From: Nitrosomonadales bacterium
GTDB lineage: Bacteria > Pseudomonadota > Gammaproteobacteria > Burkholderiales > Gallionellaceae
Assembly (NCBI GenBank): GCA_023259055.1
Contig: JAHFQZ010000003.1
Location: 310,001-374,000, forward strand
DNA: 64,000 bases
Reading direction: 5' to 3'
In this document: positions 1 through 25,032 of the stretch, piece after piece
How positions within the stretch are numbered: the stretch's first letter is position 1
How the letters are laid out: each line of letters begins with the position of its first letter
Notes under the pieces: model-generated
Told to the model about the DNA's origin: nothing
The model's database searches: none
The model's input: only the letters and a program-made list of their open reading frames with translations
Made by a program: the position numbers and the translations under genes

Positions 1-2
1 TC

Positions 3-395
3 GTCGTGACCCATTTGATGGAAAAGATTAACAGCAATACCGATCAGATCATCCGCCTCGACGAGGATCAAATAGATGGCGCCGATGTCGTGGTAGTGTC
101 TTATGGCATTACGTCCCGGATCGCCGTCAAGGCCATCCAGGATGCGCGCAAGGAAGGTATCAAGGTTGGCTCATTGCGCATGATCACGATCTGGCCGTTC
201 TGCGAGAAACGTATTCGCGAACTGTCCGGCAAGGTAAAGGCCTTTGTGGTTCCGGAAATCAACTATGGACAGATGGTGCTCGAGGTGGAACGTTGCGCCG
301 CCGGCCGCAGCAAGGTAATCAGCGTCAATCACTGTGGTGGTGCGGTGCATGATCCAGATGTCATCCTGGACGCCATCAGAAAGGCAAACCAATGA
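3..395 (+). CDS. korA: 2-oxoglutarate:ferredoxin oxidoreductase alpha subunit, C-terminal part (5' end outside window)
   Basis: The reading frame is open from base 3, so the gene enters from the left edge and only about 130 C-terminal residues are visible. They form the transketolase-C-like end of a 2-oxoacid:acceptor oxidoreductase alpha chain (VVVVSYGITSRIAVKAI, then MITIWPF and a closing region with GGAVHDPD). In the family this subunit, with KorB, carries out ferredoxin-dependent reductive carboxylation of succinyl-CoA to 2-oxoglutarate. Its stop overlaps the korB start by 4 bases, so the two are translationally coupled. 2-oxoglutarate as substrate is inferred from the korABC layout and the nearby ATP-citrate lyase; another 2-oxoacid cannot be excluded. 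Confidence 0.85.
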   Translation, partial: VVTHLMEKINSNTDQIIRLDEDQIDGADVVVVSYGITSRIAVKAIQDARKEGIKVGSLRMITIWPFCEKRIRELSGKVKAFVVPEINYGQMVLEVERCAAGRSKVISVNHCGGAVHDPDVILDAIRKANQ

Positions 396-1636
396 GCACT
401 GAACTCGGTAAATTCAAGGCAGGCAGTCCCATGGCCAGCACCCTGCGCATGGACCGGATGCCGCATATCTGGTGCCCGGGTTGTGGTATCGGCTCCGAAG
501 TGAACTCCTTCGCCGAAGCCGTCAAGCGTAGCGGTATCGATCCCAAGAAGCTGGTCGTGGTGTCGGGTATCGGCTGTACCGGACGCGTGGCGGGTTATGT
601 CAATTTCGATTCGATCCACACCACGCACGGTCGCGCCATTCCCGTGGCCACCGGCGTCAAGCTGGCTAACCCGGAACTGACGGTGGTAGTGTTCAGCGGC
701 GAAGGCGACTTGTCCGGAATCGGCGGAAATCACCTGATCCATGCTGCACGGCGCAACATGGACCTAGTGGTCATCTGCAATAACAACTTTACCTATGGCA
801 TGACCGGCGGTCAGGTAACCCCGACCACGCCAAACTCGGCTATCGCCTCGACTACACCTTACGGCAACTACGAATATCCGTTCAGCTTGCCTTTCCTGAT
901 GGATGCCGCCGGCGCCACTTATATCGCGCGCTGGACTTCGATGCATGCGCGCAACGTCACCCAGTCGATCGAGGAAGCGCTGTTGCGCAAGGGTTTCTCT
1001 TTCATCGAGGTCATCTCGCCGTGCACGACGCTTTATCTGCGCCGTAACCGCCTCGGTGATGGCGTTGACATGCTCCAGCATTATCAGGAAAACTCGATTC
1101 TCAAGCATGGCGCCGATACACGTGAGACGGCCATCGACTATCAGGGGAAGATCGTAATCGGCAAATTTGTCGATAAGAATAAACCTACTTATCTGGAAGC
1201 ATCCGACAAATGCAGCATCAAGCTGGTAGGAGACGATTATCAGCTTTACGGCAAGACTATTCCCGAACGGGAGGCCGAGGAAAAAGCCGAAAAGGAGAGG
1301 ATCGCCGCTCGCCGAGCCGCGATGGCAGCAGATGAAGCGCAGGGAGAGGTAGTACCTGCAATAACCCGGAAAGCCTCTGCTGCTAAGGTGAAAAAGGCTC
1401 CAGCCAAGGCTGCGAAAAAGGCTCCTGCAAAGGTTGCTGCCGCTCCCAAGCCATCGAAGAAGGCTGTAGTCAAGCCTGTGAAAAAAGCTGCGGCAAAAGC
1501 CCCGGCCAAAAAGGCCGCTGTCAAGGCAACCGTCAAGACTAAAGTTGTAGCCAAGGCAGCTAAAAAGGCCGCACCCAAGGCAACCGGCAAGACCAAGGCT
1601 GTGGTAAAAGCTGCGCCAAAAAAGACCCGTAAGTAG
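392..1636 (+). CDS. korB: 2-oxoglutarate:ferredoxin oxidoreductase beta subunit with a Lys/Ala-rich C-terminal tail
   Basis: Residues 1-290 are a normal TPP-binding beta chain. WCPGCG (Cys28, Cys31), Cys62 in GIGCTGR and Cys211 in SPCTTLY are the expected [4Fe-4S] ligands. GEGD (103-106) followed by IGGNH and the NNNFTYGMTGGQ stretch form the TPP/Mg site; the usual first Asp is Glu here. Family members usually end near residue 290. This protein continues with a charged segment rich in Glu/Arg (about 291-320) and then about 88 residues almost wholly Lys, Ala, Pro and Val (327-414), like a histone H1 or AlgP tail. The tail is in frame and directly precedes korC (11-base gap), so it is part of the gene. 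Its role is unknown. Confidence 0.92.
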   Translation: MSTELGKFKAGSPMASTLRMDRMPHIWCPGCGIGSEVNSFAEAVKRSGIDPKKLVVVSGIGCTGRVAGYVNFDSIHTTHGRAIPVATGVKLANPELTVVVFSGEGDLSGIGGNHLIHAARRNMDLVVICNNNFTYGMTGGQVTPTTPNSAIASTTPYGNYEYPFSLPFLMDAAGATYIARWTSMHARNVTQSIEEALLRKGFSFIEVISPCTTLYLRRNRLGDGVDMLQHYQENSILKHGADTRETAIDYQGKIVIGKFVDKNKPTYLEASDKCSIKLVGDDYQLYGKTIPEREAEEKAEKERIAARRAAMAADEAQGEVVPAITRKASAAKVKKAPAKAAKKAPAKVAAAPKPSKKAVVKPVKKAAAKAPAKKAAVKATVKTKVVAKAAKKAAPKATGKTKAVVKAAPKKTRK

Positions 1637-1647
1637 GAATCGAGCGA

Positions 1648-2217
1648 ATGAGCACACAAGAAATCAGGTTTTCGGGATTCGGCGGACAGGGCATCATTCG
1701 CTGCGCCCTGATCACCGGCAAAGCGCTGTCCCTGTATGACGACAAGTTCGCCACCATGACGCAAGCCTTCGGGCCTGAAGCGCGCGGTAGCGCCTGTGCC
1801 GCGCAGCTCGTGGTTTCCGACGAACGTGTTCTGTATCCATACATCACACACCCCGGGGTTCTCGTGGCGCTGTCGCAGGAGGCTTACGACAAGTATTACG
1901 GCGAGCTGCCCAAAGGGGGAATACTGATCGTCGAAGAGGATCTGGTGAAGTTGCGCGGCGAGCATCTGGACCTCAGATTGATGCGGGTGCCGGCAACCCG
2001 TTTTGCCGAAGAACTGGGCAATCGCCTGTTCACCAATCTTGTGGCACTCGGCTTTTTTACTGCGGTCACCAACGTGGTTACCGCCGATGCGATGAAGAAG
2101 GCACTGCCCGGCCTGGTTCCTGAACGTTTTCTGAAAATCAACATCAAAGCTTTCGACAAGGGCTATGAACACGGCATACAGATGATCAGCAAGAATACTC
2201 GTGGAGACGCGTCATGA
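1648..2217 (+). CDS. korC: 2-oxoglutarate:ferredoxin oxidoreductase gamma subunit
   Basis: At 189 residues this is a complete gamma-type subunit. It opens with EIRFSGFGGQGIIRCALITGKAL, the glycine-rich start typical of the gamma domain of 2-oxoacid oxidoreductases, and has the family segment MTQAFGPEARGSACAAQLVVSD. In the complex it packs against KorA/KorB and helps in CoA-dependent catalysis. It lies 11 bases after korB and its stop overlaps the hdrA start (ATGA at 2214-2217). That overlap ties the oxidoreductase to the HdrA-like electron donor in one transcript. Confidence 0.9.
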   Translation: MSTQEIRFSGFGGQGIIRCALITGKALSLYDDKFATMTQAFGPEARGSACAAQLVVSDERVLYPYITHPGVLVALSQEAYDKYYGELPKGGILIVEEDLVKLRGEHLDLRLMRVPATRFAEELGNRLFTNLVALGFFTAVTNVVTADAMKKALPGLVPERFLKINIKAFDKGYEHGIQMISKNTRGDAS

Positions 2218-4163
2218 CGAAGAAGCGCACCGGCGTTTTTGTCTGCCATTGCGGTACAAACATCGCCGCCACCGTCGATGTGGCGAGGGTGGCCAAGGAG
2301 ATGGCCGGTGAGGATTCCGTTGCCTTCACCAAGGAATACGTTTACATGTGCTCGGAGCCGGGCCAAGAGTCTGTGGTTCAGGCGATCAAGGACAACAAGC
2401 TGGATAGTATCGTCGTTACCTGTTGTTCGCCGAACCTGCATGAAAAGACCTTCCGCGATAACGCCAAGCGGGCCGGCATCAACAATTTTACCTGCGAGAT
2501 CGCGAATATCCGCGAGCAGTGTAGTTGGGTTCATAACGACAAAGCCAAGGGAACCGAGAAGGCGATCAAGATTTCGCGCAGTGTCGTGCGCCGCGTTAAC
2601 CGCAACCAACCCTTGGAATCAATCGCCGTTAACGTCACCCGGCGTGCAATGGTGATAGGTGGAGGTATCGCCGGAATTCAAGCTGCCCTCGATATCGCCA
2701 ATGCTGGCGTGGAGGTGGTGCTGGTCGAGAAGCAGGCTACCATTGGTGGCCGCATGCTGCAGCTTTCCGAGACTTTCCCAACACTGGATTGCTCTCAGTG
2801 CGTCCTGTCGCCAAAGATGGTCGAGTTGAAACGCCACCCGAAAGTCAAACTGATGACCTATAGCGAAGTGCAGGAACTCGCAGGCTCAGTGGGCAATTTC
2901 CGGGTCAAGATTCTCAAGAAACCCACCTTTGTGGATCCGGACAAGTGCAAGCTTTGCGACGAATGTACTGCAGTCTGCCCAGTGGTGGTGCCGAACGAAT
3001 ATGAAATCAATCTGACCACCCGACGCGCCATCTACATACCCTATGCCCAATCCATTCCGGCCAGCTACACGCTTGACGAAAGTACCTGTCTTGGCTTGAA
3101 CCCCGTGGTCTGCGGCAAGTGCAAGGATGTCTGCGAGGCCGATGCAATCAACTACGATATGCGACCCGAAACGGTGACCGAGGATGTGGGCGCCATTGTG
3201 GTGGCAACCGGCTTCGATCTCTACGATCAGGCGAATATGCCAGAAATGGGTGGAGGCAAGGTCGAAGACGTGCTTGACGGCCTCCAGTTCGAGCGCCTGT
3301 GTTCGGCCTCGGGCGCGACCGGTGGTCATATACTCCGGCCATCAGATCACAAAGAGCCAAAAAATGTGGTCTTTATCCAGTGCGTCGGATCGCGCGATCC
3401 AGCGAAGCATTGCGCCTACTGCTCAAAGATCTGCTGTATGTACACCGCCAAGCATGCCCAACTTTACAAGCATCACGTTCCGGACGGCCGCGCCTATGTG
3501 TTCTACATCGACATCCGCTCTGGTGGCAAGGGCTATGAGGAGTTCGTGCAACGCACCATGGAGGACAACGATACGCTCTATCTGCGTGGTCGTGTCTCCA
3601 GGCTTTACCGGCATAACGGCAAGGTTCGCGTGCTCGGTACTGATACCCTGTCCGGTCAGAACGTGGAGATCGACGCCGATATGGTAGTGCTGGCGCTCGC
3701 GATGGTGCCATCGAAGGGAACCACAGAGATTGCCAAGATACTCAAGATCGGCCGCGACAAGGACGGATTTCTTGCCGAGGCTCACCCCAAGCTGAGACCG
3801 GTCGAAAGCGTCACTGGCGGTATTTATCTGGCGGGTGCGGCCCAGGCTCCCAAGGATATCCCGGAGACCGTCGCACAAGCTGGTGCAGCGGCAGCCAAGG
3901 TAATTGCGCTGCTCTCGCAGTCTACGCTTAGCCGTCCGCCGTTGATAGCCAAGGTGCGTCCATCTCACTGCACCGGTTGCGGGATGTGCGTTGACGCATG
4001 TCCTTTCCTGGCGATTCGTCTGGAAAACGGAAAGGCAATCGTGAATGAGGCGCTTTGCGAGGGTTGCGGCAGCTGTTCTGCTACCTGTCTGCGTGCCGCT
4101 ATTGATGTCAAGAATGTTACGCAGCTCCAGATCTTCGAAATGATCGAAGCGTGCCTGGCTTGA
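2214..4163 (+). CDS. hdrA: HdrA-like FAD/iron-sulfur protein (heterodisulfide reductase subunit A family)
   Basis: This 649-residue protein has the HdrA layout. An N-terminal domain carries CHCG (11-14). A thioredoxin-reductase-like FAD fold starts at about residue 146 (VIGGGIAGIQAALDIA). A Cys-rich insert begins at Cys245 (CKLCDECTAVCP) with CGKCKDVCEA following, and two C-terminal [4Fe-4S] motifs begin at Cys586 (CTGCGMCVDACP) and Cys615 (CEGCGSCSATC). HdrA proteins bind the FAD that performs electron bifurcation or confurcation and reduce or oxidise ferredoxin. Its place directly behind korABC and before flxD-like genes suggests it delivers reduced ferredoxin to the oxidoreductase. No hdrB or hdrC follows, which is unusual for classical Hdr complexes. 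Confidence 0.9.
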   Translation: MTKKRTGVFVCHCGTNIAATVDVARVAKEMAGEDSVAFTKEYVYMCSEPGQESVVQAIKDNKLDSIVVTCCSPNLHEKTFRDNAKRAGINNFTCEIANIREQCSWVHNDKAKGTEKAIKISRSVVRRVNRNQPLESIAVNVTRRAMVIGGGIAGIQAALDIANAGVEVVLVEKQATIGGRMLQLSETFPTLDCSQCVLSPKMVELKRHPKVKLMTYSEVQELAGSVGNFRVKILKKPTFVDPDKCKLCDECTAVCPVVVPNEYEINLTTRRAIYIPYAQSIPASYTLDESTCLGLNPVVCGKCKDVCEADAINYDMRPETVTEDVGAIVVATGFDLYDQANMPEMGGGKVEDVLDGLQFERLCSASGATGGHILRPSDHKEPKNVVFIQCVGSRDPAKHCAYCSKICCMYTAKHAQLYKHHVPDGRAYVFYIDIRSGGKGYEEFVQRTMEDNDTLYLRGRVSRLYRHNGKVRVLGTDTLSGQNVEIDADMVVLALAMVPSKGTTEIAKILKIGRDKDGFLAEAHPKLRPVESVTGGIYLAGAAQAPKDIPETVAQAGAAAAKVIALLSQSTLSRPPLIAKVRPSHCTGCGMCVDACPFLAIRLENGKAIVNEALCEGCGSCSATCLRAAIDVKNVTQLQIFEMIEACLA

Positions 4164-4197
4164 GAGAAGGAAAACCGGATTGAGAGAAGGAATATAG

Positions 4198-4632
4198 ATG
4201 TCGGAACAGCAAAATTACGAACCCAGGGTCGTCGCCTTTTTGTGCAAGTGGTGCTCATCGGCGGGCAGCGATCTGGCTGGTGTTTCACGGATACAGTACC
4301 CTGCCAATGCGACGCCGATTACCATTCCGTGCACGGGTGCCGTTTCGCCAATGTATATCCTGTCGGCCTTCAACAAGGGAGCGGATGGTGTCTTGGTATC
4401 GGGCTGCCATATCGGCGATTGTCACTACATCGAGGGCAACTTTCTGGCGCGTCGCAAGATGCACCTGATTATGGAGCTGCTCGAATTCATCGGCGTCGAG
4501 CCGAACAGGTTCCGTATGTCTTGGGTATCGGCCGCCGAGGGAGCAAAGTTTGCCCAGGTCATCACGGACTTTGTCGATGACCTCAAGCCGCTCGGACCAC
4601 AGGAAAAGCTGAAGAAGGCGGAGCGCGCATGA
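4198..4632 (+). CDS. MvhD/FlxD-like [2Fe-2S] electron-transfer subunit
   Basis: The 144 residues match the methyl-viologen-reducing hydrogenase delta subunit family. Cys16 and Cys19 (FLCKWCSSAG) and Cys70 and Cys75 (GCHIGDCHY) are the expected [2Fe-2S] ligands. In known complexes this small protein links HdrA to its partner, either a hydrogenase or the FlxABC NAD(P)H module. It follows hdrA by 34 bases and overlaps the next gene by 4. The direct repeat gagagaaggaa in the gap gives two Shine-Dalgarno-like copies; the one ending at about 4190 is best placed for this start. No hydrogenase gene is nearby in this operon, so the Flx-type partner is preferred. Confidence 0.88.
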   Translation: MSEQQNYEPRVVAFLCKWCSSAGSDLAGVSRIQYPANATPITIPCTGAVSPMYILSAFNKGADGVLVSGCHIGDCHYIEGNFLARRKMHLIMELLEFIGVEPNRFRMSWVSAAEGAKFAQVITDFVDDLKPLGPQEKLKKAERA

Positions 4633-5660
4633 TCAATATTCAGGATATCCGCGATACGGCGAGGGATATGCTCGCGAAAGGCGAAGTCCGCACCGTCATA
4701 GGTTATCGGCGAGGAAGCCGAGGTATGCCCGCCGAGCCCGCTTTCATTACCAGCCCGGAACAGGCCGATGAGTTGATTTGGGATCCAACCTGTTATCACA
4801 ACCTGTCCCTTTATCTGGTTCATGACCAGAAAATTCTGGCACACCTGCGTAAGGCTTCGGGTTCACCCATCGCCATTGTAGCCAAGGGATGCGACGCACG
4901 ATCTATCGTCGTGCTGCTGCAGGAACACTACTTCAAACGCGAGGACGTTTACATCATCGGCGTATCCTGCGAAGGTACCGGGGTTCTTGACGAACGCAAA
5001 CTGGCTTCCCAATTGAACGGAGTCCAGCCTACGCTTGCCGCTTTTGACGGAGACGATTACGTATTCACCACTGCGGAAGGCGAGAAGCGATTGCCGGCCC
5101 GCGAGGTGATGGCAGACCGTTGTCTGGAGTGCCGTATACCTTTCCCCAAGGAACACAATGTGGTGTTCGGCGAGGACAAGACAGGTCGCCAACTGGCGGA
5201 GCCATTCGCTGCTCTGACCCGCTTCGAGGCGCAGGGAACCGGCGAGCGCTGGGACATCTGGAGCCACCATTTCGACCGTTGCATGCGTTGCTTCGCATGC
5301 CGCTCGGTGTGTCCAATGTGCTACTGCGACGAGTGCGTGGTAGACAGTATTACCTTCCCGGTAACACAGCAAACTTCGGCGGCAGAAAAAGCCGATCGCG
5401 TTCGCTGGATTGAGCGGTCGGCAATGCGTTCCGAAAATATCACCTATCTATTGACGCGTGCCATGCACCTTGCTGGTCGCTGCACCGACTGCGGCGAGTG
5501 CGAACGTGCCTGTCCAGTCAACATCCCGATACGGATGCTCAACAACAAAATGGAACGAGAAGCACGCGAAAAATTCGGCTATGAGCCAGGCGCAAGCATC
5601 GGAGGATCTTCGCTGGTAGCCTCCTTCCTCGATAACGACCCCGGCGATTTCATCAGGTAA
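4629..5660 (+). CDS. FlxC-like iron-sulfur subunit (4Fe-4S dicluster protein)
   Basis: The 343-residue protein has an N-terminal half that resembles F420-hydrogenase-beta/Flx-type proteins (IAIVAKGCDARSIVVLLQE). Two Cys clusters follow: one from Cys218 (CMRCFACRSVCPMCYCDEC) and a ferredoxin motif from Cys285 (CTDCGECERACPVN). Such subunits pass electrons between a flavin subunit and MvhD/HdrA. The gene overlaps its upstream neighbour by 4 bases and precedes the next by 4. The order hdrA-D-C-B-A here is the mirror image of flxABCD-hdrA described in sulfate reducers, and the label FlxC rests on that order. Which of the two ferredoxin-like subunits is B or C could be reversed. Confidence 0.75.
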   Translation: MINIQDIRDTARDMLAKGEVRTVIGYRRGSRGMPAEPAFITSPEQADELIWDPTCYHNLSLYLVHDQKILAHLRKASGSPIAIVAKGCDARSIVVLLQEHYFKREDVYIIGVSCEGTGVLDERKLASQLNGVQPTLAAFDGDDYVFTTAEGEKRLPAREVMADRCLECRIPFPKEHNVVFGEDKTGRQLAEPFAALTRFEAQGTGERWDIWSHHFDRCMRCFACRSVCPMCYCDECVVDSITFPVTQQTSAAEKADRVRWIERSAMRSENITYLLTRAMHLAGRCTDCGECERACPVNIPIRMLNNKMEREAREKFGYEPGASIGGSSLVASFLDNDPGDFIR

Positions 5661-5664
5661 CAGC

Positions 5665-6699
5665 ATGGAAAAGATTTTAGATAAGAAACGCATCGACGAC
5701 TGGATAGCCGCGTTGAACGACTGGGAGGTTCACGCGCCAGCGTTGGAAGATGGCATCTGGACGTATAAACCGGTCAGCGGCGCTGCCCGGCTTGACCACC
5801 CCAACACCAGGCAATCGCCGAAGGGATTCACTTTCCCGCAGCGGGAAGTATATTTCTCGTTCGAGCAGATCAAGGGCGAGCCACCCAAGCTGACGCAGAT
5901 TTTGCCGAAGGAAACGCGTCACGTCGTGTTCGGCGTACGCCCTTGCGATGGCAAGGGAGTGCCGCGCATGGATAAAGTGTTCACCGATCATGTCGAGGAT
6001 ACTTATTACACTACACGCCGCAAGAATGTGGCATACGTGGGTCTGGCGTGCAACAAGCCGCCCAGCGCCACCTGCTTCTGTCTGTCGGTAGGCGGATCGC
6101 CGGTTTCCACCGACGGGCTCGATGTTCAACTGACTGACTTGGGCGACCGCTACTTTGTGAAGGCGGTCACCGAAACAGGTAAGGCACTGATGAAGGCTGC
6201 CGGCAGTCTGTTGACCGAGCCTGCAGCCGCCGATCAAAAGCAGGTTAAGCAGGTGCATACCGAGGCTGTGGCTTATCCGCAACGCAAGATTAACGACCCG
6301 GACGGAGCACCGGCCAAACTGAAGGTGAGCTTCAATTCGCCGTTGTGGGATGAGATGGCACGGGCCTGCATCGGCTGCGGTATCTGCACCTTCCTGTGCC
6401 CGACCTGCCATTGTTTTGACATCAACGACGAAGTACACAGCAAGGCTCCGCTGCAGGGCCAGCGGGTGCGCACATGGGACAACTGCCAGTTCCCAGACTT
6501 CACGATGCACTCGTCCGGACACAACCCGCGGGAGAATACCGGCGCGCGTCTGCGCCAGCGGGTGAACCACAAGTTTCAATATTTCCACGAGAATTTCGGG
6601 ATGCACCAGTGCACAGGCTGCGGTCGTTGTGTCAGCGAATGTCCGGTGGGAATCGATATCGTCGCTGTAGTAAATAAGGTAACCGAAAATGTCGGATAA
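5665..6699 (+). CDS. FlxB-like iron-sulfur subunit (AsrA/sulfhydrogenase-beta type)
   Basis: This 344-residue protein resembles the iron-sulfur subunit of anaerobic sulfite reductase and sulfhydrogenase (AsrA/HydB family). It has a conserved GVRPCDGKG segment, Cys residues in GLACNKPPSATCFC, and two ferredoxin motifs starting at Cys235 (CIGCGICTFLCPTC) and Cys316 (CTGCGRCVSECPVG). It would carry electrons from the flavin subunit encoded next toward the HdrA side. It is tightly packed: 4 bases after the previous gene, and its last 11 bases overlap the start of the flavin subunit. No siroheme or NiFe partner is present, so a sulfite reductase role is unlikely. Confidence 0.8.
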   Translation: MEKILDKKRIDDWIAALNDWEVHAPALEDGIWTYKPVSGAARLDHPNTRQSPKGFTFPQREVYFSFEQIKGEPPKLTQILPKETRHVVFGVRPCDGKGVPRMDKVFTDHVEDTYYTTRRKNVAYVGLACNKPPSATCFCLSVGGSPVSTDGLDVQLTDLGDRYFVKAVTETGKALMKAAGSLLTEPAAADQKQVKQVHTEAVAYPQRKINDPDGAPAKLKVSFNSPLWDEMARACIGCGICTFLCPTCHCFDINDEVHSKAPLQGQRVRTWDNCQFPDFTMHSSGHNPRENTGARLRQRVNHKFQYFHENFGMHQCTGCGRCVSECPVGIDIVAVVNKVTENVG

Positions 6700-7516
6700 C
6701 ATCTATCTTCCAAAACTGGGCAGAGTCGCCTTTATCAAAGATGAGGTGGTTGGCGAACGCGCCATCAAGACTTTCCGCGTCGAGGCTGCGGATGGAGGAG
6801 ATCTCTTTGAACACGAGTGCGGCCAATGCGCGATGCTGTCAATATTTGGTCGTGGTGAGTCGATGATCTCTATCGCCTCATCACCGCTGATCAAGGAATA
6901 CAAGCAGTTCAGCATCATGCGTGTGGGCCGCGTATCCACCGCTTTTCACGATTTGGCGGTAGGCGATGTTATCGGCATCCGCGGACCTTACGGCAACAAT
7001 TTCCCGATTGACGATTGGCGCGGAAAGAATCTCTACTTCATCGGCGGCGGTTGCGGCCTGGCACCGATCTGGCCGTTGATTACCACTGCAGTAGCACAAC
7101 GCGCCGACTTCAAAAACATCACTGTGTTCTACGGTGGACGTACTTCGCGCGACATCATGTACAGGGCGGAGCTTGAGAAGCTGCGCGAATCTGTCGATGT
7201 CCATCTGTCAATCGACAAGGCAGAGGAGGGTTGGGATGGCTACTGCGGCTTCGTACCGGCAGCCGTGATGGACAAGGATCCTGTTCCCGACAATTCCGTC
7301 GCGATCACATGCGGACCACCGATCATGATCAAGTTCGTGATACAGAACCTGAACCAACTCGGATTCGCGGACGACCAGATATACACGACCATAGAGAACA
7401 AGATGAAATGCGGCCTTGGGAAGTGCGGTCGCTGCAACGTCGGCAAAGACTATGTATGTGTCAAGGGGCCGGTCTATTCATGGGCAGTACTTAAGAATCT
7501 GCCAGAGGAATATTAA
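6689..7516 (+). CDS. FlxA-like FAD/NAD(P)H-binding subunit with [2Fe-2S] cluster
   Basis: The 275 residues show the ferredoxin-NADP reductase fold found in AsrB, sulfhydrogenase gamma and PyrK-type subunits. An FAD-binding barrel comes first (about 1-105, with GIRGPYGNNFP), then an NAD(P)-binding domain (YFIGGGCGLAPIWPLI, later CGPPIMIKFV). The C-terminal [2Fe-2S] ligands are Cys241, Cys246, Cys249 and Cys257. It is the probable entry point for NADH or NADPH into the HdrA-Flx complex. The start ATG lies inside the previous gene (11-base overlap). The gene ends the operon core, and a 105-base gap with a large inverted repeat separates it from the citrate lyase genes. Confidence 0.87.
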   Translation: MSDNIYLPKLGRVAFIKDEVVGERAIKTFRVEAADGGDLFEHECGQCAMLSIFGRGESMISIASSPLIKEYKQFSIMRVGRVSTAFHDLAVGDVIGIRGPYGNNFPIDDWRGKNLYFIGGGCGLAPIWPLITTAVAQRADFKNITVFYGGRTSRDIMYRAELEKLRESVDVHLSIDKAEEGWDGYCGFVPAAVMDKDPVPDNSVAITCGPPIMIKFVIQNLNQLGFADDQIYTTIENKMKCGLGKCGRCNVGKDYVCVKGPVYSWAVLKNLPEEY

Positions 7517-7621: not shown

Positions 7622-8902
7622 ATGAACGTCAGTGGTATGCTTTACGGAGCGAAGTTGCTCAAAATCGTTGATTTTCCGGTCTCCGAGGTGCTCGGGCCTG
7701 AAGCCAGCGAACACGATATTCACAACATGATTGAGCGCTGCGGTTCGGTCTTCGTCAAGCCCATCTTCAGGGGTGGCATAGGCAAAAAGGGGAAATCCGG
7801 GCTGATCGGTCGCGCCAGCGACCTGAAGTCGGCACTGGCTGAGAAAGAGCGCCTCTACTTTGCTGAGTATAAAGTTGGGGGTGTCATGTACAAGTCGCAG
7901 GGGGTCACCTTCGAGGGTGCCGTCCCGGCCGAACATGAGATTTATTTCTCGATTTCAGATTCGACTCGCTACCGCGCTCCGGTCATGACGCTCACGCATC
8001 ACGGCGGCATGGACATAGAAGAACTGGACAAGACACAGATCATCGAAGTCCCGTTCGATCCCCTGACCGGACTCAAGTCATTCATCATCTCCAACGCATT
8101 GTCCGATCTGGGCGCGCCGCGCGAGATTGTGTCGCCGCTGGTGCAACATTTACCGAAGCTGTGGGACCTGTTCCATCATTACGGCATGTCCACAATGGAA
8201 CTTAATCCCATCCGCATGATGGAGGGCAAATCCGGCTCCCTGATACCGGTGGCCTGCGATTTCAAATGCGGCTTCGACCGCGACGACCCGCGCGTGAACC
8301 GTTTGAACCTGCCAGTTGACCTCTTCGTTACCGAGGCCAACGATTTCGAGCAGGAGATCAACGAGCTGCGTACCTATCAGGGCCAGAGCGATGTATATGT
8401 GATCAACGAGAAAGGTACCATCCTGGCGCCTACCTTCGGCGGTGGAGCGAACTCGCTGGTTACCGAAGTGCTGGGCAACGATGCCATCATCTCTTCCGAT
8501 TTCGGGGGCAACCCGCCCTACGAGAAAATGTATGAAGTGATGCGCATCTGCCTCAAATATTATCTCAAGCAATCAAACGTGCTGTTTATCATTGGCGGTA
8601 AAGCCAACAACACTGACATATTTGTCACGTTCCGGGCGATGGCCGATGCGCTGCGCGATTACTTCAGCGAACACGGCCCCACACCGCTGTATGTGGTGAT
8701 AGGCCGTGGCGGTCCCAATGTGATACGCGGCATGGGCGTTTTCAAGGATGTGCTCGACGCATTGCGGATACCCTATAAAATCTTCGGCTTTGACTCCGCG
8801 ATGACAGACGTGGTTAATTTCGCACAGGAGGCGGACCACTGGATGAAGAGCGGCGGACGTGCTGAAGTGGCTAAGGTGCTGGGTTTGCCAGCAGACGCCT
8901 GA
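7622..8902 (+). CDS. ATP-citrate lyase small (ATP-grasp) subunit
   Basis: At 426 residues this matches the succinyl-CoA-synthetase-beta-like chain of bacterial ATP-citrate lyase. It has an N-terminal ATP-grasp region, MELNPIRM near residue 192 (metal-binding end of the grasp), CDFKCGFDRDDP, and a C-terminal flavodoxin-like part with FGGGANSLVTEVLG and VIGRGGPNVIRGMG. With the next gene it cleaves citrate to acetyl-CoA and oxaloacetate using ATP and CoA, the diagnostic step of the reductive TCA cycle. A good ribosome site (gtaaggga) precedes ATG 7622. The sequence could also suit a citryl-CoA synthetase, but the citrate-synthase-like end of its partner favours the one-enzyme lyase. Symbols aclA and aclB are used in opposite ways, so none is given. 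Confidence 0.88.
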   Translation: MNVSGMLYGAKLLKIVDFPVSEVLGPEASEHDIHNMIERCGSVFVKPIFRGGIGKKGKSGLIGRASDLKSALAEKERLYFAEYKVGGVMYKSQGVTFEGAVPAEHEIYFSISDSTRYRAPVMTLTHHGGMDIEELDKTQIIEVPFDPLTGLKSFIISNALSDLGAPREIVSPLVQHLPKLWDLFHHYGMSTMELNPIRMMEGKSGSLIPVACDFKCGFDRDDPRVNRLNLPVDLFVTEANDFEQEINELRTYQGQSDVYVINEKGTILAPTFGGGANSLVTEVLGNDAIISSDFGGNPPYEKMYEVMRICLKYYLKQSNVLFIIGGKANNTDIFVTFRAMADALRDYFSEHGPTPLYVVIGRGGPNVIRGMGVFKDVLDALRIPYKIFGFDSAMTDVVNFAQEADHWMKSGGRAEVAKVLGLPADA

Positions 8903-9015: not shown

Positions 9016-11718
9016 ATGAGAAAGCCTGGTATCGATAATTTTAAATACTTCGTTGGCACCCGGTCTCTGGCCGATATAGCGACCCGTGAAGATCGCATCT
9101 GTGTGCTGAACATCACAGGGAACGAATCCCGTGCAGTGACTCCGGTCAGCCATGCCTATTCGGGTGGCAATATTGTGTTCGGCACCTCGCCGGGTCGACG
9201 TGGGCAAGTCGTTGAGACCCCCATAGGCAACATCCCTGTTTACAACAACGTGCGTGAAGGCATGGAGGCCGGACACAAATTCAACGTCGGTGTCGTCTAT
9301 CTGCCGCCGTCTGCCGTGCGTGACGGCGTCGCCGAGCTGATCCGGATCAATCCTGATGTCGAGAAGGTCATCATCCTCACCGAGAAGACCTCGGTGCACG
9401 ATGCCCGCGAAATCAGGGCGCTAGGCCAGCAGCGCGGTGTAGATATTTTCGGTGCCAACTGCCTGGGCGTGGCGGATTCGTGGACACATGTGCGCATCGG
9501 CGGTGCACTGGGTGGTGACAAACCCGAAGAGACTTTGCGCAAAGGCTCGATCGCCATCTATTCCAACTCCGGAAATTTCACCACCACCATCGCTAACTAT
9601 TTGTCGATTGGCGGATGGGGAACGACGACGCTGATCTCCAGCGGCAAGGATGTCTATATTAATTATGCAACCCCCGAGTTTGCATACGGTATGGCCAACG
9701 ACGCGCGCACCAAGGCAGCGGTGATGTATTGCGAGCCAGGTGGATATTACGAGGAAGCAGTTACCTTCGAAAAGCCGGTGGTGGCCTGCGTAGTTGGCCG
9801 CTGGAAGGCGAATCTGACGCGTGCTGTAGGCCACGCTGGCGCCATCGCCGGATCGGGTGATGATGCCCGGGCCAAGGAAGGCTGGTTCATGAAGAAATTC
9901 GGTGTGACCGATCTGTTCACACCCGAAAACCCCGTGTGCTCCAAATTGGGCGCGGTGGTCACCAATATCTCGCATATCCCACTGGCACTGACTGCGGTAA
10001 TGAAACTCAACGGCGTCAAGCAGGATTTCCCGTCGGAAGGCAATCTGGAATTGAAGCCGTGGTTCGGCGACGACCAAGGTTTGAAACTCCCGCCCGCATT
10101 GAATATTCCTGTGGTCAAGGCCTTGTCACCTTACGATGAACAAATCGCCGAGCTGTCCAAACATGTTGGCGCCATTTTCCCGCGCCAGTCCATGAAAGAC
10201 TGCTCGGGAAGCTCGGTGATGGATCCGAAGACCCAGGTTACCAAGGTCAACAACATATCCATCCTGGACACCGCCAAGCAGCCGCTGGAATCCAACCTGT
10301 GCATGGCACTGGTGCGCGAGCTCAACGATGCCAACGATAACGTCCTGTTTAACATCGCAGTCGCGGCGCGGGTCAACCTCCATGGCGAAGCCATGCTGGC
10401 TGCCGCCGATGCGGCGCGCGAGGCCGGCAACGCCCCCAATACGGCGATCAGCGCGGCGGTTGCGCTGCTTGGTCCGAAGCGCGTCGACGGCGCACGCAAT
10501 GCTGCCGACACATTGGTTGAACTGTTCGCCCACTCCGGTCTCCTGACCGGCGACGACGAAAAGGCCAAAATCACGCCCGCCACGGCTACTCCGGAACAAC
10601 TTGCAACCCTGTTGGGAAAAACGCCGGATGCGCAAGCCGAAGCGATGCTCAAGGCTTTCGATAAACGCGGAGCCAAGTCGGTCTTCGTGCGCTATCTACG
10701 CAGCCTGAAAGGCCACCCGACAACGGATGCGGTGATCGCCGCACTTACCACCACCATCGCCTGGGAGCCGCTGATCCGCAAGCGCATCTCCAAGCTGACC
10801 GTGCGTAACTTGCCCTGGTATACGCACCTGTTCTCAGCCATCATCGGCGCCGCAGCCGAGGGCAAACACCACCAGCCCGGCAAATTCTGCGGGATCAGCA
10901 ACGAAGAAATGCTGGAGTCATGGACCACTACCCAGTTGGCTTATCTCTCCCTGCTCGGCGAGCGTCCAACCGAGGCGAGCCTGTTCCCGTTCCAGGTCAT
11001 GCTGGGTCTGATCATCTCCAATGGAGTCGGCACCATCTCGGCACAGGGTTGCAAAGGAGCAGTATCCGCCGACGGCCCGGAATCGCCGGAACGTGTGCAG
11101 ATCAACAAGGGCATGATCGGATTCCTGACTCACACCGGTTTCGCCCACGGCGGCAACGGTTTCGAAGGCATCCAGTTCCTGATCGAGAGCTTCAGCAAAA
11201 CCCCGTTGACCGATGCAAGCGTCTCCAACCACGGCCTCGACCTCAGGGCGATGGCAACGGAATTCGCGGTGGCATTCAATAAGGAGAAGAAGGCCGGCAA
11301 GGCGCTCGGCCTGCCGGTGCGCAACATCCCCGGCGTCAACCACCCAGTGTTCAAGGGGCATCCGGTCAACAAGGATCCGCGCGAGGTTTACATCGCGGAT
11401 TTGTTCGCCGAGCGCGGCGAGAAAAATATTTTCCACGACTATTACAGGACGCTGGTGCAGGCCTTGTACGACAATGGCGTGACCAATAACGTGTTCTGTG
11501 TGAACATCGATGCCATCATCGCCGCGATGCTGCTGAAGCTCCTGTGGTCGCGCTACCGCAAGGGCGAATTCAGCGAAAGCTCGATGGAAATGGCAGCCTT
11601 CACCGCGTTCCTGTTTGGCCGTATGGCAGGATGCGCCGGTGAAATCGACGATCACATCAACCGTGGCCGCAACATGGACACCCGCACTCCGGCTTCGCAG
11701 TGCAACCACGTTTCCTAG
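9016..11718 (+). CDS. ATP-citrate lyase large subunit, long form (about 900 residues)
   Basis: Residues 1-330 are succinyl-CoA-synthetase-alpha-like, with a CoA-binding N-terminus and the phosphohistidine motif GHAGAIAGSG centred on His273. The C-terminal 270 residues are the citrate-synthase-like lyase module (EGKHHQPGKFCGIS, GTISAQGCKGAVSADGPESP, and HTGFAHGGNGFEG with His706 and His711). Classical large subunits have about 610 residues. The extra 250-300 lie between these modules (about 375-620). Part of that insert (about 440-530) resembles the helical N-terminal half of citrate-synthase/citryl-CoA-lyase proteins, which suggests an internal fusion or duplication. The length fits the second, rarer ATP-citrate lyase type reported for Magnetococcus and some nitrite oxidisers; that assignment is from memory and not tested. 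Confidence 0.88.
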   Translation: MRKPGIDNFKYFVGTRSLADIATREDRICVLNITGNESRAVTPVSHAYSGGNIVFGTSPGRRGQVVETPIGNIPVYNNVREGMEAGHKFNVGVVYLPPSAVRDGVAELIRINPDVEKVIILTEKTSVHDAREIRALGQQRGVDIFGANCLGVADSWTHVRIGGALGGDKPEETLRKGSIAIYSNSGNFTTTIANYLSIGGWGTTTLISSGKDVYINYATPEFAYGMANDARTKAAVMYCEPGGYYEEAVTFEKPVVACVVGRWKANLTRAVGHAGAIAGSGDDARAKEGWFMKKFGVTDLFTPENPVCSKLGAVVTNISHIPLALTAVMKLNGVKQDFPSEGNLELKPWFGDDQGLKLPPALNIPVVKALSPYDEQIAELSKHVGAIFPRQSMKDCSGSSVMDPKTQVTKVNNISILDTAKQPLESNLCMALVRELNDANDNVLFNIAVAARVNLHGEAMLAAADAAREAGNAPNTAISAAVALLGPKRVDGARNAADTLVELFAHSGLLTGDDEKAKITPATATPEQLATLLGKTPDAQAEAMLKAFDKRGAKSVFVRYLRSLKGHPTTDAVIAALTTTIAWEPLIRKRISKLTVRNLPWYTHLFSAIIGAAAEGKHHQPGKFCGISNEEMLESWTTTQLAYLSLLGERPTEASLFPFQVMLGLIISNGVGTISAQGCKGAVSADGPESPERVQINKGMIGFLTHTGFAHGGNGFEGIQFLIESFSKTPLTDASVSNHGLDLRAMATEFAVAFNKEKKAGKALGLPVRNIPGVNHPVFKGHPVNKDPREVYIADLFAERGEKNIFHDYYRTLVQALYDNGVTNNVFCVNIDAIIAAMLLKLLWSRYRKGEFSESSMEMAAFTAFLFGRMAGCAGEIDDHINRGRNMDTRTPASQCNHVS

Positions 11719-13460: not shown

Positions 13461-15242
13461 TCAGAGCACCTTCACCTGCATCAACTCCAGTCCATCTGGA
13501 TCAGTCAGATGCACCGCGCAGGCGATGCAGGGGTCGAAGCTGTGGATGGTGCGCAGTATCTCGATGGGCTGTTTCACATCATGCAGTTGGTGGCCTTGCA
13601 GTGCTGCTTCATACGGCCCCTGATTTCCCTGAGCATCGCGCGGCCCGGCGTTCCAGGTGCTTGGTACGATGGCTTGGTAGTTGTCGATCTTTTGATCCTT
13701 GATGACGATCCAGTGCGCTAGCGCGCCGCGCGGTGCTTCCGTGACTCCTACGCCCTGCGCGTGGCTCGGCCAGGTCGAAGGCTCCCACTTCGTTTCGTTG
13801 AAAGTTTTGATATCGCCCGCTTTGATGTTGGCGACCAATTGGTCATACCAGCCCTGCATCGCATCGGCGATGATCTTGGTTTCCAGCGTGCGCGCTGCGG
13901 TACGCCCCAAGGTCGAGTACAGCGCCTGCACCGGCAGATCGAGTTTCTTCAGGGTCATGCCGACTAGTTCTTTGGTCTGCTCATGTCCTGCTGCATACAT
14001 CATCAACACGCGCGCCAGCGGCCCGACTTCGACTGCCTTGCCTTTCCAGCGCGGCGACTTCATCCAGGAATAATCCTTGTCCACATCCAGTTGCTGATAC
14101 GGCGGCTTCGGTCCGGTGTAATCGAGCTTGGTCTCGCCCTTGTATGGATGCAGCCCCTGCTTTTTGCCCACGGAATATTCGTACCAGGCGTGGCTGACGA
14201 ATTCCTGTATCTCGCTATCCGCATTGAGGTCGATAGGATGTATCTTGCTCAGGTCGCGATCCAGTATCACGCCGGATGGAATCAGGAAGGAGGAGGGGTC
14301 TGACATCCCTTTGGCAGGGAACTCGCCGTAGGTAAGGAAGCTGCCGATGCCTTCGCCTTGCTTGAACCAGTCTTTGTAGAAGCCCGCGATAGCCAGTGTG
14401 TCCGGCACATAGACCTGATCGACGAACTCGCGCATCTGGTTGATCGCGTTCTGCACTGTTTGCAGTCCGACCACATTGAGCGCCGTGCCGGAATTGCCGC
14501 CGTGGTAATGCGGGCCCTTGCCATGACCCGGATGCTGCGGATCGATGCTGATGGCGCATGGCACGCCGCCAACCAGGAACATCGGATGAGGATTCTTGCC
14601 GCCGAAAACGGCGTGCAATTTCACCACATCACGTTGCCATGCCAGCGCATCGAGATAGTGTGCCACTGCCATGAGGTTGGCTTCGTGCGGCAGTTTGTAG
14701 GCTGGATGCCCCCAGTAGCCGTTGGCGAAAATGCCTAATTGACCGGCCTCTACAAAACCTTTCAGCTTCTTTTGCACATCGCTGAAATAGCCCGGCGACG
14801 ATCTGGCATAGCCCGACAGGCTCTGCGCCAGCGCCGAAGTGGCCTTGGGATCGGCCTTCAGCGCCGAAACTACATCCACCCAGTCGAGCGCGTGCAGGTG
14901 ATAGAAGTGCATCACGTGGTCGTGGATGTATTGCGCGCCTATCATCAGGTTGCGGATCAGTTGCGCATTGGCCGGTACCTCGATATTCAGCGCGCTTTCG
15001 ACAGCTCGCACCGAGGCGATGCCATGCACCAGCGTGCACACGCCGCAGATGCGTTGTGCCAGCGCCCATGCCTCGCGCGGATCGCGTCCGCGCAGGATGA
15101 TCTCGATGCCGCGCACCATCGTGCCGGCCGATGAGGCACGGATGATGCGGCCTGAATCATCGGTTTCCGCTTCAATGCGCAAATGCCCTTCGATGCGGGT
15201 GACCGGATCAACGATGACGCGACGAGTAGCTGGTTGGTTCAT
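13461..15242 (-). CDS. hynL: [NiFe] hydrogenase large subunit (Isp-linked group 1 type)
   Basis: The 593 residues hold both NiFe ligand motifs: RICGVCTLVHG (Cys66, Cys69) and DPCIACAVH (Cys572, Cys575, ending at His578). Fifteen residues follow His578 and would be removed by the maturation protease encoded upstream. The enzyme splits H2, and the Ni-Fe(CN)2CO centre sits in this subunit. It is the last gene of an operon ordered small subunit, Isp1, Isp2, large subunit, the arrangement of the group 1e hydrogenases of Allochromatium and Thiocapsa. Its start overlaps the end of isp2 by 4 bases. Electrons leave through the small subunit and Isp1/Isp2. Confidence 0.93.
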   Translation of the reverse strand: MNQPATRRVIVDPVTRIEGHLRIEAETDDSGRIIRASSAGTMVRGIEIILRGRDPREAWALAQRICGVCTLVHGIASVRAVESALNIEVPANAQLIRNLMIGAQYIHDHVMHFYHLHALDWVDVVSALKADPKATSALAQSLSGYARSSPGYFSDVQKKLKGFVEAGQLGIFANGYWGHPAYKLPHEANLMAVAHYLDALAWQRDVVKLHAVFGGKNPHPMFLVGGVPCAISIDPQHPGHGKGPHYHGGNSGTALNVVGLQTVQNAINQMREFVDQVYVPDTLAIAGFYKDWFKQGEGIGSFLTYGEFPAKGMSDPSSFLIPSGVILDRDLSKIHPIDLNADSEIQEFVSHAWYEYSVGKKQGLHPYKGETKLDYTGPKPPYQQLDVDKDYSWMKSPRWKGKAVEVGPLARVLMMYAAGHEQTKELVGMTLKKLDLPVQALYSTLGRTAARTLETKIIADAMQGWYDQLVANIKAGDIKTFNETKWEPSTWPSHAQGVGVTEAPRGALAHWIVIKDQKIDNYQAIVPSTWNAGPRDAQGNQGPYEAALQGHQLHDVKQPIEILRTIHSFDPCIACAVHLTDPDGLELMQVKVL

Positions 15243-16507
15243 GGTGTGCTTTCTTCAACAAGATATTGGGCCAGTAATTCGGTGAGCCCAATCACTTCGA
15301 CCTTCATGTGATTGTGCTCGATGCCTTCTTCCAGCACGATGCGACAGTTCGCGCAGGCGGTGATCAGCGTCTGCACGCCGGTGGCTTCGATCTGCCTCTT
15401 TTTGATCTTGAATGCCTGCAAGCGTAACGGTTCGGCGCGCGTAATGGCCGAGACGCCACCACCGCCGCCGCAGCACCAGTTCATCACGCCGGCATCGGAC
15501 ATCTCGCGAAAATCTGCGGCGATCTCGGACAGCAAGCGGCGCGGCTGTTCCACGACGCCACCGCGACGGGCGATCTGGCAGGGATCGTGATAGGTCAGCG
15601 GACGCTTGTCCTTGCCGCTGGTCTTGAGTTTGCCTGCCTTTTGCAGTTCATCAAGCACCTCGAGAATATGCTTCACCTCAAAGCCGTATGGCCTGCCCAT
15701 CAGGTTCGGCCCTTCCCAGCGAAGTGCGGTAAAGGCATGGCCGCATTCCGGGCTGATCACGCACTTGACCTTGAGGCGTTCGGCTGCCACCACGATACGG
15801 CTGACGATCTCTCGCGCCAGGTCGGAAGCGCCGATCTGTATGCCGCTGTTGGTCGCTTCGAACGCATCCTGCGCCAGCGTCCAGCTCACCCCGGCCTGTT
15901 TGAAGATGCGACTGAGTGCGGACAGATATTCGGGAAAGTTGATGATCTCCATCGAGGACATCACCACCAGATAGTCCGCGCCCTCGCGTTCCACCGGCAC
16001 ATCGATGCCGGTGTCGGCCTGCACGTGCCTGATCTGCGCCTGCACCGCCGGCCACTTGACGCCCATCGGGCTTCCGATGTTGATGGCGCGTGTCGTCGCG
16101 GCAATCATATCTTCCGGTGCGTGTCCCGAAGCTGCCATGCCCTCACGCATCTTGCGGATCATGTAGGTGATGTCGTTGCCCACCGGACAGACCATCGAGC
16201 AGCGACCGCACAGCGTGCAACTGTCATAGACCAGCGGTTCCCATTCAGCCAGTTCGGCGTCGGTCACCGGTTTGGATAGGCCGAGCATTTTCCCCAGCAT
16301 ACCGAGTAGCGTGTACTCTTGCTTCCAGATGCGGCGCAACGGTTCCAGTTTGTGGATTGGCGTGTATTTCGCCTCACTGGTTTCGGTGTAGAACAGACAC
16401 GCTTCGGCACACAGTCCGCAATGCACGCAACTCGAGAAGAAGCTGGCGATCGGCGCATCGATCACCTCCTTAAAAGCGCTGATGCCTTTTGCGAGTGTCG
16501 CGCTCAT
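15239..16507 (-). CDS. isp2: Isp2, HdrD-like iron-sulfur protein of the hydrogenase
   Basis: The protein has 422 residues. Two N-terminal [4Fe-4S] motifs come first (CVHCGLCAEACLFY and CTLCGRCSMVCPVGND). Two CCG-type regions follow in the C-terminal half (CVISPECGHAF with YHDPCQIARRGG, then WCCGGGGGVSA with ACANC). This is the heterodisulfide-reductase-subunit-D layout found in Isp2. It lies between Isp1 and the large subunit with 4-base overlaps on both sides. Together with cytochrome Isp1 it is thought to carry electrons from the hydrogenase to the quinone pool or to thiol acceptors. It is not likely to be the missing HdrBC of the rTCA operon, because it sits inside a separate hydrogenase operon. 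Confidence 0.9.
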   Translation of the reverse strand: MSATLAKGISAFKEVIDAPIASFFSSCVHCGLCAEACLFYTETSEAKYTPIHKLEPLRRIWKQEYTLLGMLGKMLGLSKPVTDAELAEWEPLVYDSCTLCGRCSMVCPVGNDITYMIRKMREGMAASGHAPEDMIAATTRAINIGSPMGVKWPAVQAQIRHVQADTGIDVPVEREGADYLVVMSSMEIINFPEYLSALSRIFKQAGVSWTLAQDAFEATNSGIQIGASDLAREIVSRIVVAAERLKVKCVISPECGHAFTALRWEGPNLMGRPYGFEVKHILEVLDELQKAGKLKTSGKDKRPLTYHDPCQIARRGGVVEQPRRLLSEIAADFREMSDAGVMNWCCGGGGGVSAITRAEPLRLQAFKIKKRQIEATGVQTLITACANCRIVLEEGIEHNHMKVEVIGLTELLAQYLVEESTP

Positions 16508-17163
16508 GATGCCACCCCCTTGCTCGCAAACCAGTCACCGTTGTACCAGCGCGAGATGAACAAGGAGAAAGTGTGGAACAGTTTTGTGAACGGCAGCAAC
16601 ACCAGCAACAATTCTATCGAGAACAGGTGCAGCGCCAGCATCAGGGTGTATTCCGTCAGCAGGTGGTGATAGGCCAGATAGCCGGTCAGCAACGGCAGGA
16701 GCGTCGCTCCCCACGCGACATAATCACCGATGCCGGACAGCATGCGCTTCACCGGGTTGTTCAGCCGGTGCGCCAGCAGCACGCCCAAAGCCACTATCGC
16801 CGCCACCACCGAGGCATCTATCAACGCTGTAGGCAAACCCGGCCAGACCAAGCTCGTTATGCTGCGGAAAAATTCGATGTGCGGCGCGAAGAAGAAAATC
16901 GTCACCAGCAGTCCGAAATGGAACACATAACCGCCGATGTAAGTCACCGGATCGCGTTTCAGCATGCCTTCTGCTGGCAACGATCGCATGGCTATGGTGC
17001 GCCAACCGCTGCCGGGAGTGATAGTGCGAGGCCTTGCCAGATCAGCCTTGCGGCCAAGACCAAGGATCTCGAACAGGCGCAGCCCGATACCTGCAACGAA
17101 TAACATCAATGCCCAGTTCAATGCGCTGCCGCGCGCGAAGGTCAGGAGATCGAGATGGCTCAT
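16504..17163 (-). CDS. isp1: Isp1, NarI-like cytochrome b of the hydrogenase
   Basis: Starting at ATG 17163 (MSHLDLLTF) the protein has 219 residues. It shows about five membrane segments, among them LNWALMLFVAGIGLRLFEIL, YVFHFGLLVTIFFFAPHIEF, VVAAIVALGVLLAHRL and LMLALHLFSIELLLVLLPF, with His residues that can bind heme b. The family is the respiratory nitrate reductase gamma/Isp1 type. A longer start would extend into a repeat element and is rejected. The first in-frame ATG has ggat upstream as a weak ribosome site. It anchors the hydrogenase and passes electrons to quinone. Confidence 0.87.
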   Translation of the reverse strand: MSHLDLLTFARGSALNWALMLFVAGIGLRLFEILGLGRKADLARPRTITPGSGWRTIAMRSLPAEGMLKRDPVTYIGGYVFHFGLLVTIFFFAPHIEFFRSITSLVWPGLPTALIDASVVAAIVALGVLLAHRLNNPVKRMLSGIGDYVAWGATLLPLLTGYLAYHHLLTEYTLMLALHLFSIELLLVLLPFTKLFHTFSLFISRWYNGDWFASKGVAS

Positions 17164-17183
17164 TTTGAAATATCCATTAGAGC

Positions 17184-17312: not shown

Positions 17313-17332
17313 TGGTATTGGATTTCCCGGTT

Positions 17333-18448: not shown

Positions 18449-18518
18449 GCTGCCTCCTGGTGGTTGGTGAACCATGGAATGCGTGAGTATTCTGCGCGGC
18501 AAATCTGCCTTGGTCAAC

Positions 18519-22788: not shown

Positions 22789-25032
<2,244 letters not shown>

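Follow-up and report, generated by a model that had tools for sequence, protein, structure and literature searches.

Reductive tricarboxylic acid (rTCA) cycle clusters in which flxABCD-hdrABC is interspersed with korABCD and tfrAB have been described for the Escarpia and Riftia symbionts, Thioflavicoccus mobilis and Gammaproteobacterium RIFOXYD12_FULL_61_37, according to the excerpted text of two reports (PMC6315080; PMC11636981). In the excerpts of the first, Rubin-Blum and others (2019) suggested a complex shuttling electrons to 2-oxoglutarate:ferredoxin oxidoreductase (OGOR) and thiol:fumarate reductase (PMC6315080). The excerpts of the second place OGOR between HdrA and HdrBC, report operon-like co-expression except for tfrAB, and name both direct and DsrC-like routes (PMC11636981); pntAB is also reported in the published clusters. 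This kind of array is already known, and a mechanism for it has already been proposed. Here, an array of the same gene types is analysed that runs across the start of a 64,000-nucleotide stretch of Nitrosomonadales DNA (the window; C9:310001-374000), in a genome of 9 contigs and 2,605,120 bases with a completeness of 99.99% and a contamination of 0.16%. We lean towards reading it as a complete KOR-Hdr-Flx-Tfr module of the rTCA cycle, KOR being the 2-oxoacid:ferredoxin oxidoreductase, which would bifurcate electrons with fumarate as the high-potential acceptor.

As far as the excerpts describe the tubeworm-symbiont cluster, the array resembles it in its gene types including rubrerythrin, in HdrA and HdrBC flanking KOR, in aclAB and in the co-occurrence of RuBisCO. 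Sequence comparison recovered both the Escarpia symbiont (L042; KorA 78% identical) and the RIFOXYD12 metagenome-assembled genome (MAG; L032; KorA 86% identical). The present array differs from these clusters in its host, apparently a Gallionellaceae-type betaproteobacterium, and in a long basic tail on KorB, L032 being tailless and the tubeworm symbionts (L040-L042) having a short acidic tail in place of the basic one. The HdrABC-FlxABCD enzymes of Desulfovibrio and other anaerobes likewise combine a Flx arm with HdrABC and have equal subunit types, but their genes are not known to alternate with those of KOR and of a fumarate-reductase-like pair. In the methanogen supercomplex of Hdr with formate dehydrogenase and formylmethanofuran dehydrogenase, HdrA feeds the ferredoxin-type CO2-reducing enzyme Fwd, with formate or H2 as the donor and CoM-S-S-CoB as the acceptor. 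HdrA, HdrB and FlxC of the array have solved relatives in that supercomplex (7bkb), and coenzymes M and B would not be expected in this organism. Methanogen TfrAB (NF004900, NF004898) includes the best match of TfrA, and archaeal TfrB aligns piecewise with TfrB, HdrC and HdrB of the array; unlike in methanogens, the HdrC and HdrB parts are separate genes here, and the curated cut-offs were not reached. In the literature on Gallionellaceae or Gallionella and the rTCA cycle, no report of this array in Gallionellaceae was recognised in titles and abstract starts among the matches listed, which is not proof of absence.

Gene content of the array and its HdrBC genes

The array comprises 14 genes on one strand in the order tfrB-tfrA-rbr-hdrC-hdrB-korD-korA-korB-korC-hdrA-flxD-flxC-flxB-flxA, followed by ATP citrate lyase genes (Table 1). 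From tfrB to flxA the successive gaps were 28, 18, 10, 21, 10, -4, -4, 11, -4, 34, -4, 4 and -11 nt, with a maximum of 34 nt; the flxA-aclB and aclB-aclA gaps were 105 and 113 nt. Based on the short gaps and the common strand, the array is predicted to be one operon. A promoter scan gave 4 promoter-like sites compared to a mean of 7.0 in shuffles, and one good match before tfrB (TTGTCA, 18 nt, TATAAT at L008:9323-9352) is suggestive only.

Table 1. Features of the array and the adjoining ATP citrate lyase genes. Bare positions are those of the window; upstream DNA is numbered as L008, and window position equals L008 minus 15000.
Feature	Position	Strand	Basis or remark
tfrB	C9:304571-305314	+	outside window, upstream
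tfrA	C9:305343-307058	+	outside window, upstream
rubrerythrin/ferritin-like gene (rbr), between tfrA and hdrC	C9:307077-307610 = L008:12077-12610	+	family match
hdrC	C9:307621-308040 = L008:12621-13040	+	start codon read from sequence
hdrB	C9:308062-308958 = L008:13062-13958	+	PF02754 in two stretches
korD, ferredoxin-type delta subunit	C9:308969-309232 = L008:13969-14232	+	eight cysteines
korA	C9:309229-310395 = L008:14229-15395; 3' end = window 1..395	+	PF01855
korB, thiamine pyrophosphate-binding beta subunit of 2-oxoacid:ferredoxin oxidoreductase, with C-terminal extension	392..1636	+	PF02775
KorB C-terminal tail, residues 291-414, Lys/Ala/Pro-rich, histone-H1-like, ends KKTRK	1262..1633	+	composition
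korC, gamma subunit	1648..2217	+	PF01558 E=1.1e-29; NF006323 2-oxoacid:ferredoxin oxidoreductase gamma 187 bits, cut-off 235
hdrA, FAD and Fe-S, bifurcating-type	2214..4163	+	NF040770 HdrA2 800 bits
flxD, MvhD/FlpD-type electron entry subunit	4198..4632	+	PF02662 E=1.2e-49
flxC, Fe-S subunit	4629..5660	+	dicluster Fe-S domains
flxB, AsrA/ShyB/HydB-type Fe-S subunit	5665..6699	+	NF040829 E=1.9e-50, TIGR02910 E=1.1e-48 (both below cut-offs); PF17179
flxA, FAD/NAD(P)H-binding subunit, AsrB/HydG-type	6689..7516	+	NF006220 E=8.1e-61, below cut-off
aclB-like gene for a subunit of ATP citrate lyase, with ATP-grasp and citrate-binding domains	7622..8902	+	PF16114 E=1.9e-17; PF08442 E=2.9e-12
aclA-like gene for the large subunit (900 aa) of ATP citrate lyase	9016..11718	+	PF02629, PF13607; homology to succinate-CoA ligase alpha (118 bits, under the cut-off)

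The window begins inside korA, and this edge accounts for the statement, in a sequence-only reading of the window, that HdrB and HdrC are missing. Within the window that reading was borne out by open reading frames and family matches: korB, korC, hdrA and four Flx-type genes follow one another, tightly packed and in the order it gave, with a korC-hdrA overlap of 4 nt. The DNA upstream of base 1, where by its own account hdrBC would speak against it, contained hdrC and hdrB 2.4 to 1.0 kb before the window, directly before korD-korA. A CCG-domain search of the genome gave matches at C9:308074-308337 and 308521-308790, approximately 1.2-1.9 kb before the window, and further matches at C9:325332, C9:256246 and on C3 and C6; in this genome only the upstream hdrB gene matched this HdrB at E<=1e-60. 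Since hdrC-hdrB is present, the alternatives that had been drawn from its absence (a substitute acceptor, operation without bifurcation or a complex split across the genome) lose their support.

The four-subunit KOR set of alpha, beta, gamma and ferredoxin-type delta was present (PF01855, PF02775, PF01558 and korD). KorA exceeded the cut-off of the general 2-oxoacid alpha model (543 bits, cut-off 411) and scored 372 bits with the 2-oxoglutarate alpha model (cut-off 579), while KorB gave 235 and 233 bits with the NCBIfam models for the beta subunits of 2-oxoacid and 2-oxoglutarate ferredoxin oxidoreductases (cut-offs 402 and 364). The eight cysteines of KorD were invariant in 63/63 rows.

By sequence, the Hdr-Flx subunit set is complete (HdrA, HdrB, HdrC, FlxA, FlxB, FlxC and FlxD). 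The NF040770 score of HdrA was below the model cut-off of 1100 bits; HdrA covered positions 1-640 and the separate FlxD positions 641-775 of the 777 in this model. With the HdrA of 5odc, the alignment reached 660 bits over 645 residues and matched a Lys with 5odc_A residue 409. HdrB matched five solved HdrB sequences (E=1.7e-39 to 2.1e-35), and the ten cysteines of its two CCG stretches were invariant in 52/52 aligned HdrBs. For HdrC, which scored 85 bits with TIGR03290 (cut-off 160), the eight Fe-S cysteines of two 4Fe-4S sites were invariant in 46/46 rows. The Flx subunits were assigned by homology to related families, the best solved chains being 7bkb_E, a formate dehydrogenase beta subunit, for FlxC (E=3.6e-22, residues 198-323) and 9nez_C, a sulfhydrogenase gamma subunit, for FlxA (E=4.9e-50). 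The cofactor-binding cysteines and flavoprotein motifs examined in the array proteins are present.

TfrA aligned with chains of succinate dehydrogenase, fumarate reductase and L-aspartate oxidase. QYHPTG was found in 41/41 rows and PRD, HYQNGG and NRLMGNS in 40/40 rows with letters, and TE was also kept; the fumarate-site region is largely common to L-aspartate oxidases, so that these motifs are not specific. An Asn occupied, in 41/41 rows, the position of the His in the HTVMAEGG segment of the 7d6v succinate dehydrogenase, a residue which we take to carry covalent FAD. In E. coli FrdA, fumarate reduction survives the loss of the covalent-FAD His, whereas the oxidation of succinate does not. 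Two CxxCxxCxxxC sets account for eight cysteines of TfrB (41/41 rows), alongside four conserved cysteines for a 2Fe-2S cluster; as both sets are full, TfrB probably has no 3Fe-4S cluster. The archaeal TfrB model NF004898 was covered piecewise by TfrB (19-188), HdrC (117-222) and HdrB (263-482, of 488), these being weak matches of 33-38 bits (TfrB 36) against a cut-off of 385. Because the curated cut-offs for TfrA and TfrB were not reached, the pair is here called Tfr-like only.

Conservation and reshuffling in related genomes

Genome contigs were scanned with KorA, and of 108 confirmed relatives the best 80 were kept, giving 80 loci; those with KorA at 91-95% identity were mostly from Gallionella, Sideroxydans and other Nitrosomonadales MAGs. 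The host is therefore called Gallionellaceae-type here and would seem to be related to iron oxidisers, although the array may move between lineages. Loci with an HdrA at least 58% identical, starting no more than 3.5 kb after korA, were defined as array loci (54/80). As controls, 22 loci were used with KorA 60-67% identical that did not pass the array threshold.

All four flxDCBA genes were present in 42/42 array loci with at least 7.3 kb downstream, hdrB in 47/48 with at least 1.4 kb upstream, hdrC in 43/47 with at least 2.2 kb upstream, and tfrA in 38/43 with at least 5 kb. The KOR-HdrA-Flx association thus recurs in other genomes, and the proposal in the sequence-only reading of a dedicated complex making reduced ferredoxin from NAD(P)H stands in part: a Flx/HdrA/KOR unit agrees with the gene association (contiguity, with hdrB before korA), whereas its lack of HdrBC does not. 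The five array loci without tfrA (L035, L044, L046, L047 and L052) had it elsewhere in the same genome, beyond the locus or on another contig. In L035, tfrBA lay some kilobases past aclA; in L044, L046 and L047, hdrB was beside kor with no hdrC there, and hdrC directly followed tfrA elsewhere, at a distance of some kilobases from aclA in two of the three. In L058, L061 and L062 (Acidobacteriota, Aminicenantes) the order was changed and the content kept, with tfrBA after flxA, a placement also found on other contigs of the L052, L054 and L056 genomes. The Armatimonadota MAG (L089) kept the module genes in a different order, and L075 was without hdrB, its HdrA match being short and at a contig end.

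Despite these changes of order, the KOR, Hdr-Flx and TfrAB parts remain together in most related arrays, across several phyla. The array was also seen in Alphaproteobacteria, Aminicenantes, Acidobacteriota and Armatimonadota, and in the named strains Thiococcus pfennigii (L045) and Blastochloris sulfoviridis (L046). Within the window's own family its HdrB is patchy, matching in 14/100 genomes at E<=1e-60, own included. The rubrerythrin-like gene was matched in 31/80 related loci (E<=1e-20); its product perhaps gives the Fe-S complex protection from oxygen.

Electron acceptor and direction of the putative complex

From the gene content and its conserved association, we infer a complex in which electrons would pass from NAD(P)H through FlxA, FlxB/FlxC and FlxD to the HdrA flavin, the predicted bifurcation point. 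Low-potential electrons would leave through the HdrA clusters to KorD and KOR, directly or via ferredoxin, for the conversion of succinyl-CoA and CO2 to 2-oxoglutarate, and high-potential electrons would pass through HdrC and HdrB to TfrB/TfrA, where fumarate would be reduced to succinate. The yield from two NAD(P)H would thereby be one succinate and one low-potential electron pair. From the stoichiometry of the cycle, such 1:1 coupling would fit its need, one fumarate being reduced per 2-oxoglutarate made. With midpoint potentials of -320 mV for NADH, +30 mV for fumarate and about -500 mV for ferredoxin, the overall reaction would be downhill.

TfrA (E<=1e-80) was found in 14/14 array genomes tested compared to 5/22 controls (5/21 without L082, described below), two groups that differ in taxonomy; in three of the five TfrA-bearing controls it lay beside hdrA/flxD or hdrC-hdrB-hdrA. 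Several observations weigh against fumarate as the acceptor or against a single conserved module. No hdr gene was found beside TfrA in the other two of these control genomes, and a weaker HdrA-like gene (40-54%) was within the locus in 11/22 controls. The best NCBIfam match of TfrA, the thiol:fumarate reductase model NF004900, reached 340 bits with a cut-off of 718, L-aspartate oxidases gave the next-best scores, and family models did not detect the C-terminal succinate dehydrogenase domain. In L059, flxD was followed by tfrB with no flxCBA between them. Correlations of pairwise protein distances (27 rows; Spearman values of 0.64-0.93 within a set of twelve genes of the kor, hdr, flx and tfr groups) speak for the module, but they also reflect shared ancestry, and aclB gave 0.55-0.81. 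In the excerpts of one report, tfrAB expression in Endoriftia is out of step with the rest of the cluster (PMC11636981).

The main rival reading, possible if on the whole unlikely, is that the array is complete and that HdrB passes electrons to a protein disulfide, DsrC or a relative, and from there to TfrAB or sulfur metabolism. A DsrC-type acceptor has been proposed for the Flx-Hdr of sulfate reducers. HdrB retains both CCG sites in 52/52 rows, and the present genome has four DsrC-family matches, although all four places are outside the array, whereas TfrAB is a physically linked partner. DsrC-family genes were found in 27/28 array genomes compared to 7/22 controls (6/21 without L082), counts that also weigh against fumarate and fit the DsrC route at least as well. 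Non-proteobacterial array genomes had the family in 7/8, one with a stop inside the match, while the Armatimonadota array genome, whose completeness is not known, had no match. TusE/DsrC is common in Proteobacteria, to which 20/28 of the array genomes surveyed belong, and as nearly all array genomes have DsrC, its presence is a poor discriminator. The excerpts for Endoriftia name a DsrC-like route as an option (PMC11636981).

The Thermoanaerobaculales MAG L082, counted among the controls, proved to hold a divergent array at L082:510-9722, with the order korDABC-hdrA (54%), fused FlxD-FlxC, flxB, flxA and fused HdrC-HdrB. The last, a protein of 399 aa, combines two CCG stretches with a 4Fe-4S pair. 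L082 thus has a counterpart of HdrBC, while the fumarate arm was not seen: its genome had no TfrA at E<=1e-80 and three DsrC-family matches. This counts against fumarate as the acceptor, and because DsrC occurs there without a TfrA match, it strengthens the DsrC alternative. L082 offers a natural contrast for the acceptor question.

It is improbable, to our mind, that the array is a non-bifurcating or confurcating hub, with an oxidative KOR and with NAD(P)H formation by Hdr-Flx at the expense of reduced ferredoxin and succinate or thiols. Enzymes of this kind are reversible in principle, and their direction cannot be read from sequence; a second strong FAD_binding_2 protein at C3:94591 is possibly a succinate dehydrogenase. 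However, ATP citrate lyase genes directly follow the array and pyruvate:ferredoxin oxidoreductase is nearby, as for the reductive cycle, and TfrA is without the covalent-FAD His, the loss of which shifts E. coli FrdA towards fumarate reduction.

Still less credible is that TfrAB and HdrB form an MFR-type fumarate reductase linked to menaquinol, with the Hdr arm exchanging electrons with the quinone pool. The top score of HdrB was with the SdhE anchor subunit of 8-methylmenaquinol:fumarate reductase, at 173 bits compared to 171 bits for CoB-CoM HdrB, but these are near-equal and far under the cut-offs of 500 and 345, and nearly all arrays have hdrCB alongside kor and hdrA. A KOR-HdrA-Flx complex working without HdrB and HdrC has next to no probability left and was rejected, since hdrC and hdrB are separated from the adjoining array genes by 10 to 21 nt, recur in the related arrays at the frequencies given above and have a fused equivalent in L082; the supposed 'HdrBC-less' bifurcating complex is hereby removed.

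The KorB tail and the genomic neighbourhood

The tail of KorB is 124 aa long, with 38 K+R compared to 9 D+E. Tails of at least 80 aa (80-185 aa) were found in 28/80 KorBs including its own, i.e. in 27/79 relatives among the best 80 of 108, and 23 of the 28 had KKTRK within the final 12 residues. Control KorBs had at most 8 residues beyond position 290 in 21 sequences (of 22; L076 left out), and some array KorBs were also without a long tail, e.g. L026, L032 and L036-L052. Eleven other array proteins were checked for a similar end, and only KorC of L054 has one. A search of the tail against its own genome returned only the self-match, though such searches may mask low-complexity sequence, and no lysine-rich extension of an oxidoreductase was recognised in a literature search (titles and abstract starts, among the matches listed), which is not proof of absence. 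One joint reading would have the polycationic tail, mostly ending in KKTRK, gained by KorB in one Beta/Gammaproteobacterial branch and tethering KOR to an acidic partner or other cell structure. The array would then form a single soluble super-assembly in which the cost of making 2-oxoglutarate is met directly by fumarate reduction, flavin bifurcation coupling these two rTCA redox steps 1:1 without a pool of free ferredoxin; as a whole, we regard this as doubtful.

Upstream of the array, on the minus strand, are genes for pyruvate:ferredoxin oxidoreductase (L008:2749-6354; TIGR02176, 1758 bits) and malate dehydrogenase (L008:7921-8910), and Rnf- and ApbE-like genes were noted by eye at L008:522-2623. 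Downstream, window positions 13461-18517 hold [NiFe] hydrogenase genes on the minus strand, with the large subunit at 13461-15242 (PF00374), a CCG-domain Fe-S protein at 15239-16507, also on the minus strand, and the small subunit at 17333-18517 (by eye); this hydrogenase is a possible further source of electrons near the array. The rTCA neighbourhood extends downstream with genes at 20753-25032 that were assigned by eye to aconitase and a monomeric-type isocitrate dehydrogenase. Window positions 33534-63575 were assigned by eye to a glycogen metabolism cluster (two phosphorylases, synthase, branching enzyme, ADP-glucose pyrophosphorylase and a GH57-like gene) and an RND efflux-type pair. A RuBisCO large-subunit match lies at C4:521627-522520, and the Calvin cycle may be encoded in this genome alongside the rTCA cycle.

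To the published clusters, this analysis adds a Gallionellaceae-type genome with both the array and a RuBisCO gene; it also widens the taxonomic range of the array, shows hdrC moving together with tfrAB, and describes the KorB tail. As TfrAB, HdrC and KOR are repeatedly tied to one another, whether fumarate is the high-potential acceptor can be tested directly.

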